In this document: piece by piece, positions 4,565-29,712 of the stretch
Layout of the letters: each line of letters opens with the position of its first letter
Position numbering within the stretch: position 1 is the stretch's first letter
NCBI GenBank assembly: GCA_017620205.1
Contig: JAFZQX010000005.1
Span: forward strand, 1 to 34,354
Length of the DNA: 34,354 nucleotides
Direction of reading: 5' to 3'
Origin: Clostridia bacterium
GTDB taxonomy: Bacteria > Bacillota > Clostridia > UMGS1883 > UMGS1540
The notes under the pieces: generated by a model
Database searches by the model: none
Seen by the model: only the letters and a program-made list of their open reading frames with translations
Told to the model about the DNA's origin: nothing
Translations under genes and position numbers: made by a program

Positions 4565-5071
4565 GTGTTGAAAACACTTTTTTATAAGGTGGGAAATATG
4601 CCAAACAGCAAGGATATAACATACGGCGCAATAGCTGCCGCAATATCAGTAATATTGCTTTTCATGACGCTCATATTTTCGTTTAACAAGGCGTTTTTCA
4701 CGGGCGCGGCAACGCTCTCGTTTCCTGTTGTTGCAGTTTTAAGAAATAAAAAAACGGCAGCAATATCGCTTGCCGCCGCCGGGATATTGGCGCTTTTACT
4801 GCACCCTAATAAAATACTTGCAGCCGTTTTCGTATCACTTTCAACATACGCGCTTTTAAAAAACACAATAGAAAGAGTACAAAACATCCCCCTGCAGTGG
4901 AGTATAAAGCTTGCATTATACTTTGGCGGTGCTTCGGCGCTCAGCTTCTTGTTTTTTGGTAAGCTTATGATTTTGCCGTTGCTTTTGGGGGCGATAGCAT
5001 TTGTTATTTATGATATAGTATTGTTTTTGGGGATAGGCTACCTTTCAAACATATTAAGATTTATCAGTTGA
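4565..5071 (+). CDS. Small polytopic membrane protein of unknown function
   Basis: Not recognised. The reading frame can start at GTG 4565 or TTG 4568 behind AGGGGGT (168 residues), or at ATG 4598 behind AAGGTGGG (157 residues, MPNSKDITYG); the ATG is at least as likely. Four to five hydrophobic helices cover most of the protein (about residues 20-45, 50-62, 66-95, 112-130 and 133-160), with short basic loops. No catalytic motif is visible. The 3' end overlaps the convergent neighbour by 8 bp. The 89-base upstream gap holds the small palindrome CCCCAA-GA-TTGGGG (4537-4550). Confidence 0.65.
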   Translation: MLKTLFYKVGNMPNSKDITYGAIAAAISVILLFMTLIFSFNKAFFTGAATLSFPVVAVLRNKKTAAISLAAAGILALLLHPNKILAAVFVSLSTYALLKNTIERVQNIPLQWSIKLALYFGGASALSFLFFGKLMILPLLLGAIAFVIYDIVLFLGIGYLSNILRFIS

Positions 5072-27167: not shown

Positions 27168-27200
27168 GGGGATTAATCTCGGAACGTAAAGTAAATAAAT

Positions 27201-27226
27201 AAACGGCAGGAATTGTCCTGCCGTTT
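27201..27226. terminator. Displaced terminator, probably of the original tmRNA gene
   Basis: AAACGGCAGGA (27201-27211), a 4-base loop, TCCTGCCGTTT (27216-27226). On the minus strand it begins 5 bases after a 12-base copy of the tmRNA 3' end and is followed by ATTTATTTACTTT. It can serve as the GIY-YIG gene terminator now; its position suggests it once ended the ssrA transcript. Confidence 0.7.
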
Positions 27227-27231
27227 GTTTT

Positions 27232-27243
27232 TGGTGGAGATGA
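27232..27243. repeat. Copy of the tmRNA 3' end (attachment-site-like direct repeat, left)
   Basis: TGGTGGAGATGA is identical to the plus-strand form of the last 12 bases of ssrA (28708-28719), in the same orientation, 1,476 bp apart. Flanking bases differ at once on both sides. Confidence 0.65.
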
Positions 27244-27273
27244 AACGCACTTTGAGGGTTTCACTAAACCATT

Positions 27274-28116
27274 TTAAAGACCTTCTCCTTCTATTTGCGC
27301 AAAAGTTTTTTTGTCCTCTGTTTTCCATTCAGTCCGTCCGTTTGCATTTCTTCCCATTACTACAGCAGCTGCTAATGACGGACTTGTAAATATGTAGTCG
27401 TTAACAAATTCAAAGTCTGAATTTATCACTTTCTTTTCCATCAGTTTTTCTCTAAATTTCACTATGCTTCCCGATATACTGTTAGTAACACTTGAAGCGA
27501 TTTTTGAACCTTTAAATACAACAAAACCATCAGCAACTGCAGAACCGATTGCATCCGCACCTCGTGCTGCTTTAATATAGAATTTAATTTTAGTTTCTGA
27601 TAAGTTTTCATCGCTTAACAAATCAAAAGCTTTGTATCCGAGCGCGTTAACAAGAAGTTTTGCGTTGTCAATAAATTCTTTAAGTGTTGCTTCATCATAC
27701 TCAGATATTGATGATCTTGTTGGTGTGTTTCTATTGGTAATATCAAATCTATTGGATTCTTTTGCAAATGAGAAAAAAGCATTTTCAAGATATTTAACGT
27801 GTGCTTTGTTTAAAGCATTGTCTTTGCTAGTAACAACAACACAATTATTCCAATACTCATTGTCTTGAATGTGTTGCTTGAGTCTATCTAACAGCCTTTC
27901 TGCTTCTCCAATGTAGACCGTTTCGCTGTTATCATCATTTTTTCCGAAAAGAAAATATATACCTGTATAACCGGATTCTTTTCGTTCAGAAAACTTGTTA
28001 ATTTCATTTCTTGAAATCTTATACACAATTCCGTTCCAATTTGATAGTTCACACATTATTCTACCGTTAGGATTACCCTCAAAGATAAACATTTGAATGG
28101 TTTTATCATAAGCCAT
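27274..28116 (-). CDS. GIY-YIG nuclease-family protein with DUF4357
   Basis: A 280-residue protein. The GIY-YIG domain is at about 48-125: SGYTGIYFLFG is the GIY part and TVYIGEAERLLDRLKQH the YIG part, with the family arginine in the following helix; NKAHVKYLENAFF supplies the expected glutamate. The C-terminal 90 residues (ARGADAIGSAVADGFVVFKGSKI and FTSPSLAAAVVMGRNANGRTEWK) fit DUF4357, frequently attached to such nucleases. DNA cleavage is expected from the family, but the target is unknown; homing or defence roles are possible. GAGG precedes the ATG. It lies 14 bases after the four-helix-bundle gene, so the two form an operon inside the ssrA-bounded segment. Confidence 0.85.
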   Translation of the reverse strand: MAYDKTIQMFIFEGNPNGRIMCELSNWNGIVYKISRNEINKFSERKESGYTGIYFLFGKNDDNSETVYIGEAERLLDRLKQHIQDNEYWNNCVVVTSKDNALNKAHVKYLENAFFSFAKESNRFDITNRNTPTRSSISEYDEATLKEFIDNAKLLVNALGYKAFDLLSDENLSETKIKFYIKAARGADAIGSAVADGFVVFKGSKIASSVTNSISGSIVKFREKLMEKKVINSDFEFVNDYIFTSPSLAAAVVMGRNANGRTEWKTEDKKTFAQIEGEGL

Positions 28117-28130
28117 AAAACAACCTCACA

Positions 28131-28487
28131 TCAATCATTATTCTTCTTCGTGGTATTAATTGAAGAAATCAACATGCGGCGGATTGTGCCACAAGCATTT
28201 TTCAGTTCATTATACTTATCTTCTTCTATGTAATCTGTTTTAAACAACAGTTCAAGCCAATATTCCGATTCATAGCACTCTTTTAATGCAATCTGCATTT
28301 TTGCAATAAAATCGGCAGTGCCGTGAGCATATTTTGACTCGTGTATATTTGCACCGATTGATGTCCCCGAACGCAAAAGCTGATTTGTTAAAACAGACTC
28401 CTTTTTATCTTCTTTAAGTGTTTTACATGTTTTAACGATTTCAACAGCAAAGTCCTTTGCTTTATCAAGCATTATGCTGTCAGCCAT
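28131..28487 (-). CDS. Four-helix-bundle protein (23S rRNA intervening-sequence protein family)
   Basis: A 118-residue all-helical protein. The segment TNQLLRSGTSIGANIHESKYA followed by FIAKMQIALKECYESEYWLELL is the signature of the four-helix-bundle/IVP family (TIGR02436, PF05635). Members are encoded in intervening sequences of 23S rRNA genes in some bacteria and in many unrelated places; the diversity-generating-retroelement accessory protein Avd shares the fold. Biochemical function is unclear, with nucleic-acid binding suggested for Avd. It is upstream of the GIY-YIG gene, 14 bases apart. GAAGGTG precedes the ATG by 5 bases. Confidence 0.88.
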   Translation of the reverse strand: MADSIMLDKAKDFAVEIVKTCKTLKEDKKESVLTNQLLRSGTSIGANIHESKYAHGTADFIAKMQIALKECYESEYWLELLFKTDYIEEDKYNELKNACGTIRRMLISSINTTKKNND

Positions 28488-28515
28488 AAAAGCACCTTCT
28501 CTTTTTAGCTAAATT

Positions 28516-28707
28516 TTGCACTCCGTGCAAAGCGAAATATTTGCTTTCAGCAAATGCGAAATAACTCCTGTCGGAGTTGCTAAATTAAATTCGCCTTTAG
28601 CGTGCGAAGCACATTTAGCACACGCAAGTGTATTTAGCTGACGGAGTCAATTCAGCTCGCCGTAAGGCGAATTTAGCTGAGAGCTTCTCGGTATCCGAGA
28701 AGCTCTC
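28516..28707. repeat. Array of micro-palindromes joined by TTTAGC/GCTAAA words
   Basis: Eight different small hairpins in 192 bases: TTGCAC-TCC-GTGCAA (28516), ATTTGCT-TTC-AGCAAAT (28539), AACTCC-TGTC-GGAGTT (28563), GTGC-GAA-GCAC (28602), ACAC-GCAA-GTGT (28620), TGAC-GGA-GTCA (28639), TCGCC-GTAA-GGCGA (28657) and a perfect 13-bp stem GAGAGCTTCTCGG-TAT-CCGAGAAGCTCTC (28679-28707). The linkers repeat AATTTAGC or GCTAAATT. The last stem ends exactly where the tmRNA 3' end begins. No coding frame. It covers the gap between ssrA and the four-helix-bundle gene. Confidence 0.75.
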
Positions 28708-28719
28708 TGGTGGAGATGA
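28708..28719. repeat. tmRNA 3' end, right copy of the direct repeat
   Basis: TGGTGGAGATGA (plus strand), the acceptor-stem end and CCA of ssrA, duplicated at 27232-27243. The 3' ends of tmRNA and tRNA genes are common integration targets. Confidence 0.65.
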
Positions 28720-29054
28720 GGAGAGTTGAACTCCTGTCCGAAAATACGTCCACAAAAGCTTCTCCGAGCGCAGTTTGTGGTTAAAATTCCCTTATAAAAC
28801 AGTCCGCAAACAAACTGTAAAATTCGGTAGCTTCATAAGTCATGACGGGCTCAAAGCTTTGCCCGTTCACGTTCACTGCTTAAATGATGCTCTGCCCGCA
28901 GCCGCAGTCCTCCGCAGGAGAACAGCAACCTAAATTAGGCTGCGCAAACTAAATTTTCGTTAGCTTTTAATTTTAAAGTTTGGGCTTTTTAAGTGGTTCC
29001 CGCCACTGCTCGCTGCTCCGGCTTCAGTATCCCCGTCGAACCCGTTACATCCCC
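28708..29054 (-). ncRNA. ssrA: Transfer-messenger RNA (tmRNA)
   Basis: A 347-base tmRNA that rescues stalled ribosomes by trans-translation. The 5' end GGGGATG (29054-29048) pairs with CATCTCC near the 3' end (one G-U pair), followed by A and an encoded CCA ending at 28708. The tRNA-like T-arm (GACAGGAGTTCAACTCTCC) and the start GTAACGGGTTCGACGGGG are conserved. The tag frame at 28964-28935 starts with GCT and ends in TAA inside a helix (GCAGCCT/AGGTTGC): it encodes ANENLVCAA. smpB is not adjacent. No T-tract follows the 3' end, unlike a normal ssrA gene; see the displaced terminator at 27201. Confidence 0.95.
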
Positions 29055-29259: not shown

Positions 29260-29288
29260 TTGACATATACACATTCTGTGTGTATAAT
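29260..29288 (+). promoter_or_regulatory. Consensus promoter with palindromic operator of the HicB gene
   Basis: TTGACA (29260-29265), exactly 17 bases, TATAAT (29283-29288): a perfect sigma-A promoter. The inverted repeat TATACACA (29266-29273)/TGTGTATA (29279-29286) occupies the spacer and enters the -10. A repressor bound there would block RNA polymerase; autoregulation by the ribbon-helix-helix end of the encoded protein is the natural inference. Confidence 0.8.
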
Positions 29289-29310
29289 TATCTGTGAAAG
29301 GAGTCTGTTT

Positions 29311-29712
29311 ATGAAAACTGCATATCCGATTGTGATGAGTAAGGATGAAAAGTATATAGTAGTTTATATCCCGGACTTTGATATTTATTCCCAAGGCAAA
29401 GACTATGCAGAGGCTATCGAAATGGCGCGGGACGCTATCGGGTTAATGGGAATTGATTATGAGGATGACGGAAAGGCGTTGCCGAAACCTACGGAAATTT
29501 CAGATGTAAAATGCGGAGCAGACGATATTATATCTTTGGTGGATATTGATTTTGCAGAATATCGCAGAAAAAACGATATGCGTTCGGTGCGCAGAAACGT
29601 AACCCTTCCGGCTTGGCTTGATTACGCAGCTGAAAAAAGCGGTATCAATGTTTCTGCAGTGTTGCAGAGAGCTTTGAAAGAAGAGTTAAATATAACGGAA
29701 ACAAGCAAATAG
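29311..29712 (+). CDS. HicB-family antitoxin, apparently without HicA
   Basis: A 133-residue protein. The N-terminal 60 residues form the HicB partial RNase-H-like fold (YPIVMSKDEKYIVVYIPDFDIYSQGKDYAEAIEMARDAIGL); the C-terminal 45 carry a ribbon-helix-helix DNA-binding segment (RRNVTLPAWLDYAAEKSGINVSAVLQRALKEEL). HicB normally neutralises the HicA mRNA interferase and represses its own operon. No HicA-size frame lies before or after the gene. ATG 29311 follows AAAGGAG by 8 bases; the longer open frame from 29260 is wrong because it begins inside the promoter -35 box. A terminator follows. It is an orphan antitoxin or a stand-alone regulator. Confidence 0.85.
   Translation: MKTAYPIVMSKDEKYIVVYIPDFDIYSQGKDYAEAIEMARDAIGLMGIDYEDDGKALPKPTEISDVKCGADDIISLVDIDFAEYRRKNDMRSVRRNVTLPAWLDYAAEKSGINVSAVLQRALKEELNITETSK

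Follow-up and report, generated by a model that had tools for sequence, protein, structure and literature searches.

Here, we describe an insert of 1,464 bp found directly behind ssrA, the gene of transfer-messenger RNA (tmRNA), in a stretch of 34,354 nucleotides from a Clostridia bacterium (assembly GCA_017620205.1, contig JAFZQX010000005.1), the whole of which we refer to as the window. With a probability of roughly 0.8, we regard this insert as a member of a family of small mobile elements, the IVP elements, that would move by the mechanism proposed below. IVP denotes a four-helix-bundle protein of the family encoded in the intervening sequences (IVS) of 23S rRNA. The core of the element consists of a terminal hairpin, an array of small hairpins and the IVP gene, and does not include the GIY-YIG nuclease gene that is also present. 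An earlier note on this DNA, which had put forward the hypothesis of an insertion driven by that nuclease, is partly supported: its driver was wrong, while its instinct on RNA genes and on the four-helix-bundle protein was right. The finding is real, and it is larger than first proposed.

An insert between ssrA and its terminator

The ssrA gene itself is intact (28,708–29,054, minus strand; ARAGORN and Rfam RF00023, 152.7 bits), encodes the tag ANENLVCAA* and has the 3′ end ...TCATCTCCACCA. Its last 12 bases, TGGTGGAGATGA on the forward strand, occur exactly twice in the window, at 27,232–27,243 and 28,708–28,719, i.e. 1,476 bp apart, and not once in 100 dinucleotide shuffles of the window. 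The duplication that the earlier note had reported is therefore borne out. The distant copy (TCATCTCCACCA when read on the minus strand), which represents the target duplication, has the CCA as its exact end; next comes a stem-loop that resembles a terminator and runs into a T-rich tail (27,201–27,226, minus strand). Here lies the original ssrA terminator (27,197–27,231, minus strand; a terminator-like site), now separated from its gene by the whole element, as had been suspected, whereas terminator calling returned no terminator for the hairpin that now stands beside the intact gene. Indeed, when the insert is excised on paper, the CCA is joined to AAAACAAACGGCAGGACAATTCCTGCCGTTTATTTATTT, an ordinary terminator. 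The alignment score of the 12-bp copy against the downstream DNA of other loci is modest (p 0.08), and the copy is convincing because it ends exactly at the CCA next to the old terminator. The arrangement of ssrA, insert, tail copy and old terminator is confirmed.

Starting from ssrA, all parts of the element lie on the minus strand. The terminal hairpin (28,679–28,707) has a perfect 13-bp stem, the foot of which abuts the CCA. It is followed by a Gut-1-like RNA array of small hairpins with 7-nt GCTAAAT spacers (28,498–28,678) and by two open reading frames, the IVP gene (28,131–28,487; 118 aa; PF05635 and TIGR02436 with E 6.6e-30 and 1.5e-33) and the gene of a GIY-YIG/DUF4357 nuclease (27,274–28,116). 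The palindromes noticed earlier are real, since the strand at 28,498–28,707 folds with z = -6.4 and none of the shuffles folds equally well. No integrase was found in the element, in agreement with the earlier note, and no transposase either. The window copy thus shows each feature by which we define an IVP element, namely a hairpin foot at the CCA, an array with 7-nt spacers and an IVP gene, all on one strand, and a tail copy on the far side.

Across loci, the left end of the element is a hairpin foot placed at the encoded CCA of a tRNA or tmRNA, or at the 3′ end of another gene. Hairpin, array with a class-specific 7-nt spacer and IVP gene follow in this order, often together with variable cargo genes, the start of which in many cases coincides with the IVP stop or comes shortly after it. 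Arrays can also be found alone, in the manner of miniature inverted-repeat transposable elements (MITEs).

IVP genes and terminal hairpins behind RNA genes

Is the position behind a structural RNA gene a common property of IVP genes? We gathered 80 loci with relatives of the IVP from named genomes. In 44 of them, a tRNA or tmRNA gene of one of many isotypes precedes the IVP by less than 600 nt and shares its strand, where 0.29 of 80 would be expected from the tRNA genes elsewhere in the same loci. No other layout of tRNA or tmRNA and IVP within 600 nt was present in the 80 loci. The suggestion that this kind of element targets structural RNA genes therefore holds well beyond the window. An Rfam scan of the IVP loci without tRNA revealed no further structural RNA gene beside the IVP, except Gut-1, and viral contigs gave only 10 IVP matches, none beside a complete tRNA gene. 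The IVP family profile matches the solved structure 2rld (E 8.9e-45), and the fold family includes the solved structures 2rld and 2gsc. For a Xanthomonas member, a homopentameric ring was reported (cited in PMC4990558).

In the 44 elements linked to tRNA or tmRNA, the edge of the terminal hairpin lies at a median distance of 0 nt from the CCA, and exactly at 0 nt in 22 of them. In 45 control RNA genes, by comparison, the terminator begins 8 nt from the CCA in the median, and at 0 nt in 3 of them; its stem is also shorter than that of the terminal hairpins. We rejected the idea that the terminal hairpin is a fold-back copy of the target, as an overlap of more than 5 nt with the RNA gene was seen in only 1 of the 44 cases. 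At four loci (L163, L178, L187 and L196, upstream of position 5001), ATGAATT elements lie at the 3′ end of an apparent RNA methyltransferase gene; here, the terminal hairpin draws its 5′ arm from the coding sequence, and its 3′ arm varies accordingly.

The array and its spacers

One 7-nt word per element parts all hairpins of the array, first in forward and then in inverted orientation, and the word varies among elements (GCTAAAT, GTGAAAT, ATGAAAT, GTGATAT, GTTATAT, ATGAATT, ATGAAGC, GTTATGA and others). The window array contains about 8 exact or near-exact copies of GCTAAAT. When mapped onto the tree of 88 IVPs, spacer class requires 15 changes against a shuffle mean of 61.5, and none of 200 shuffles is as low. 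Two genomes (G003 and G017) contain several spacer classes, each paired with its own kind of IVP. As far as sequences can tell, the agreement between spacers and IVP tree shows a stable pairing, not binding. At one further locus (L155:4720–5921), two arrays of different spacer class lie behind one tRNA-Ser gene, with an IVP gene and a cargo gene between them, a possible case of nested or tandem insertions.

In the arrays of the window's own genome, both sides of the stems vary together by pair-preserving changes, and the spacers remain constant. Single mismatches in array stems, counted on the sense strand of tRNA and IVP, are G-T in 79 and A-C in 35 cases (p 4.6e-5), an excess that is expected if the sense-strand RNA has to fold. 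The apparent constraint at the RNA level fits the classification of Gut-1 as an RNA.

Evidence for movement

Three pairs of elements located behind different RNA genes, L155/L162 (tRNA-Ser/tRNA-Val), L148/L162 (tRNA-Trp/tRNA-Val) and L176/L191 (tRNA-Trp/tRNA-Met), are 85–87% identical over terminal hairpin, array and IVP, and their similarity is limited by the RNA 3′ end on one side and by the IVP stop, or a point just past it, on the other. The elements of L123 and L124 are 99.3% identical and have unrelated upstream flanks. Furthermore, a site formed by tRNA-Thr, tRNA-Tyr and an LCP gene is empty in five genomes (G000, G001, G002, G004 and G005) and filled in G003, where hairpin, array, IVP gene, a GNAT gene and a copy of the terminator precede the LCP gene. 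An independent case comes from the ssrA gene of another bacterium (L165). The element found there encodes an IVP of another class and has ATGAAGT spacers; beyond it lie 16 bp that repeat the ssrA tail, and then the old terminator. This element has no GIY-YIG gene, which separates the essential parts (hairpin, array and IVP) from the cargo.

Tail copies of 11–30 nt that end exactly at the CCA, or in the run of A behind it, were found in the window and at L135, L139, L151, L165, L184 and L190, and at five loci (L103, L143, L147, L155 and L189) it is mostly the terminal hairpin that has been duplicated. These cases range from strong to weak, with p of 0.05 or less in 10 of 45 loci, and we accordingly rejected the tail copy as a universal hallmark. 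Behind a tRNA-Pro gene of G449, an array is followed by 2.7 kb of other DNA, a tail copy and a second array. At L333, too, a tail copy ends exactly with the CCA. Taken together, the comparisons show insertion right behind the CCA with a sharp left end, movement from RNA gene to RNA gene and gene-less copies; duplication of tail or terminator is frequent, not universal.

Structured inserts of a second kind, ~190 nt long, were observed behind RNA terminators. Part of each is a near-copy, in inverted orientation, of the T-arm that belongs to the preceding RNA (e.g. GAGGGGAGTTGAACCC). We found them at L080:1252–1440, L334 (G000:C33) and L070, as well as after ssrA in L018, L022, L026 and L037. The inserts of L080, L334 and L070 end in a tRNA-tail-like stretch with CCA, and a hairpin array starts after it.

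Gene-less arrays and the orphan RNA Gut-1

The window's own genome harbours three related arrays of 79–81% identity, located behind ssrA, behind an 18-bp copy of a tRNA-Glu tail and behind tRNA-Cys, and a single IVP gene. In two other genera of the same family (G001 and G003), a similar array follows ssrA directly, and neither of the two genes is present. Such arrays are patchy among the ssrA genes of one class. The earlier note had expected palindromes directly after ssrA, with neither the two genes nor the 12-bp copy, to speak against an insertion, and literally this is what G001 and G003 contain. These palindromes, in turn, represent the gene-less form of the element and not native ssrA sequence.

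In 2010, Weinberg et al. (PMC2864571) listed Gut-1 as a noncoding RNA for which only environmental sequences were known, and the available part of this description makes no mention of tRNA genes, IVP or mobility. We found that arrays of the GTGAAAT/ATGAAAT and related classes exceed the cut-off of the Gut-1 model RF01706, with 50–78 bits for sister arrays. The window array, with 18.5 and 21.7 bits, stays below the 50-bit cut-off and belongs to a sister class of Gut-1. The three GUGAAAU-spaced hairpins of Gut-1 correspond to the first half of the GTGAAAT/ATGAAAT-class arrays. A class-wide search with RF01706 gave 27 inspected matches. Of these, 14 start right behind the CCA of a tRNA or tmRNA gene, and an IVP lies within 500 nt of only 4. 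In one genome (G449), 11 of 20 arrays immediately follow different tRNA genes, and none of the 20 was seen with an IVP beside it. At the level of genomes, IVP genes are present in 11 of 12 genomes with Gut-1 arrays (mostly many arrays), the exception being 75% complete; in a phylum sample, which was drawn differently from the genomes with Gut-1 arrays, the count is 59 of 299. Our search of the open-access literature turned up no report that connects tRNA genes with PF05635 or Gut-1. The element family explains the orphan Gut-1 RNA and is large and, apparently, undescribed.

Cargo genes

The GIY-YIG gene of the window starts 14 nt past the IVP stop. Its product matches DUF4357 (E 1.5e-18) and GIY-YIG (0.00066, under the Pfam cut-off) and, over residues 1–278 of 280 aa, the candidate anti-phage family PDC-S14 of PADLOC (E 4.6e-107). 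We consider it variable cargo and probably a defence gene. Relatives were found in 5 of 60 relative genomes, and none of the four examined loci has an IVP. The nearest relative (L044 of G055, 1501–2328) has a tRNA-Glu gene on the opposite strand as its neighbour, the 3′ side of which is ~300 bp away, and no IVP.

Past the IVP stop, the cargo varies and includes DMP19-like, methyltransferase, GNAT, Barstar, DUF6678, SdpI and SfsA genes, among others, the start of which overlaps the IVP stop as ATGA in 11 loci. With a content this mixed, we rejected the view of the cargo as mainly defence genes. In the neighbourhood of the window element, just upstream of ssrA, lies a gene for a HicB-like antitoxin on the plus strand (29,284–29,712; PF15919, E 3.4e-11), preceded by a perfect sigma-70-like promoter (29,260–29,288).

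Proposed mechanism and alternatives

We propose that the array acts as RNA and that a ring of IVP, a pentamer by homology, would recognise its heptamers. The complex of IVP and array would give the specificity for insertion behind the CCA and would serve gene-less arrays in trans. The break in the target would have one end fixed exactly after the CCA and the other variable upstream, by which 11–30 nt of the RNA tail would be duplicated. The terminal hairpin would replace the terminator and insulate, and the 3′ end of the host RNA and its maturation would remain intact. The enzyme that joins the DNA would probably be supplied by the host.

Several points weigh against this reading. No insertion step was observed directly. 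In 36 of the 80 IVP loci, no RNA gene was called less than 600 nt upstream; some of these are contig edges or truncated RNA tails, and several lie at the ends of protein genes. Clear duplication of tail or terminator is confined to 10 of 45 loci, and no tail copy accompanies the array at tRNA-Cys or those behind ssrA in G001 and G003. Since the array is physically linked to the IVP, their shared tree may reflect common descent and not recognition; moreover, G001 contains a GCTAAAT array, but its only IVP is of another class. Finally, the Coxiella protein S23p is apparently not made in vivo (PMC4990558), and the protein may therefore not be needed everywhere.

How do other explanations compare? 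The remnant of a tRNA/tmRNA genomic island, with the 12-bp repeat as attL/attR core and a tyrosine integrase acting in cis or trans, would account for the island-like direct repeats of RNA 3′ ends around the inserts. We regard it as unlikely, because an integrase carries one matching core, whereas elements of 85–87% identity stand behind differing tRNA tails. In addition, the element starts with a hairpin exactly at the CCA and has a constant core of ~600 bp, and no integrase was found in the element or in the scanned adjacent cargo. The trimmed island named in the earlier note as the plain alternative is thereby set aside. Homing, in which the nuclease cuts ssrA and drives its own insertion with IVP and palindromes as passengers, would be in line with the GIY-YIG domain and its DUF4357, and GIY-YIG and LAGLIDADG homing genes do occur in rRNA genes of candidate phyla radiation bacteria beside IVP-coding insertions (PMC11270868). 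This driver is missing from the L165 ssrA element and from the examined tRNA-linked elements, so that it is found in the window copy only; given also the IVP-free loci of its relatives and its score as a defence protein, we hold homing to be highly improbable.

Retro-mobility, with a reverse transcriptase acting in trans to copy the array RNA and the IVP acting like its distant relative Avd, would agree with the constraint on the array at the RNA level and with tail duplications that have one fixed and one variable end. Weak PF05635 matches indeed adjoin reverse transcriptases in G003, G014 and G015, and such matches were noted at L078, L069 and L074; most likely, these are the Avd of separate diversity-generating retroelements within the same order. 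A reverse transcriptase (PF00078) is absent from the window's genome, for which completeness is estimated at 100%, and also from two genomes with several IVPs, G008 (five) and G017 (four). This route is very improbable to us. Likewise, a Y1 transposase gave no match in G001, G012 and G017, all of which have IVP elements, and we rejected both enzymes as a general need. Finally, the arrays might not be mobile at all, and instead be native processing or terminator structures of tRNA and tmRNA operons that sometimes gained an open reading frame. Their RNA-like structure would suit this view, as would the fact that three genera of one family (G000, G001 and G003) have them immediately behind ssrA, partly without reading frames. 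It is largely refuted by the empty and filled site, and near-identical copies behind different RNA genes and in unrelated flanks, the tail duplications and the patchy presence among ssrA genes of one class also stand against it, which leaves it scarcely credible.

Relation to known systems

For IVPs from outside the order of the window's bacterium, we found that the DNA before the start codon repeats with a period of 7 (38 loci from the phylum sample and viral contigs). The mean score is 20.1 at lag 7 and 16.8 at lag 14, compared to 4–5 at other lags and 3.9 after shuffling. The tRNA elements with ATTCACT-type repeats likewise have a period of 7. Such tandem repeats precede IVP genes in many bacteria (L235–L264 and L226–L233), with a period of 11 instead of 7 at L258 and L261, and resemble the heptamer short tandemly repeated repetitive (STRR) sequences of cyanobacteria. 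Of 30 IVP loci in the phylum sample, 3 lie inside 23S rRNA and 1 inside RNase P RNA. The latter gene is split by an IVP gene between inverted arms of heptamer repeats, similar to a 23S IVS (L262:1229–2003, minus strand). An IVS of 23S rRNA is cut out by RNase III, and the rRNA ends are not ligated. In Coxiella burnetii, the 23S IVS in helix 45 is reported to have three heptameric repeats (GACAGAT) before the S23p gene (PMC4990558). Judging from these shared features, the elements at tRNA and tmRNA genes appear to form one family with the rRNA IVS, as separate branches of it.

These results tie together three loose ends, namely the S23p/IVP of rRNA IVS, the orphan Gut-1 RNA and the palindrome arrays behind tRNA genes of gut Clostridia. 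The spread of IVS-type elements becomes directly testable, with filled and empty sites, a candidate RNA, a candidate protein and a likely recognition heptamer. More tentatively, and at somewhat less than even odds, we propose a class of mobile elements without a recognisable recombinase, in which a heptamer-spaced hairpin RNA and an IVP ring direct insertion to the point exactly after the CCA of tRNA and tmRNA genes, mobilise many gene-less copies in trans and collect cargo past the IVP stop, and to which the IVP insertions in 23S rRNA and RNase P would belong. Should IVP and array indeed make up the mobility apparatus, they would insert DNA site-specifically at precisely the 3′ end of mature RNAs, without the help of any known recombinase family.

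Among the closest known systems is the 23S IVS. Its S23p/IVP belongs to the same PF05635 family as the window protein, 7-nt repeats precede the reading frame in both (in the window, GCTAAAT in forward and inverted orientation), and both reside at a structural RNA gene, are patchily distributed and were acquired horizontally. The 23S IVS sits in the loop of an rRNA helix, whereas the window element lies directly after the CCA of ssrA, and elements of the window type differ further by heptamers between hairpins, the terminal hairpin at the CCA, tail duplication, cargo and gene-less copies. Gut-1 shares the hairpins and 7-nt spacers of the sister arrays, with the GCTAAAT class of the window under its cut-off. 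In the diversity-generating retroelements, Avd is a distant PF05635 homologue, but the window element and its host genome have no reverse transcriptase. Palindromes moved in trans, with many gene-less copies and few that encode a protein, are also known from MITEs, REP/RAYT and IS200/IS605; unlike these, the window-type element has no Y1 transposase, possesses 7-nt spacers and targets the CCA of RNA genes. Genomic islands at tRNA and tmRNA genes share the insertion at the RNA 3′ end with a tail repeat, whereas IVP elements carry no integrase, have a core of ~0.6 kb and are found nearly identical behind different tRNAs.
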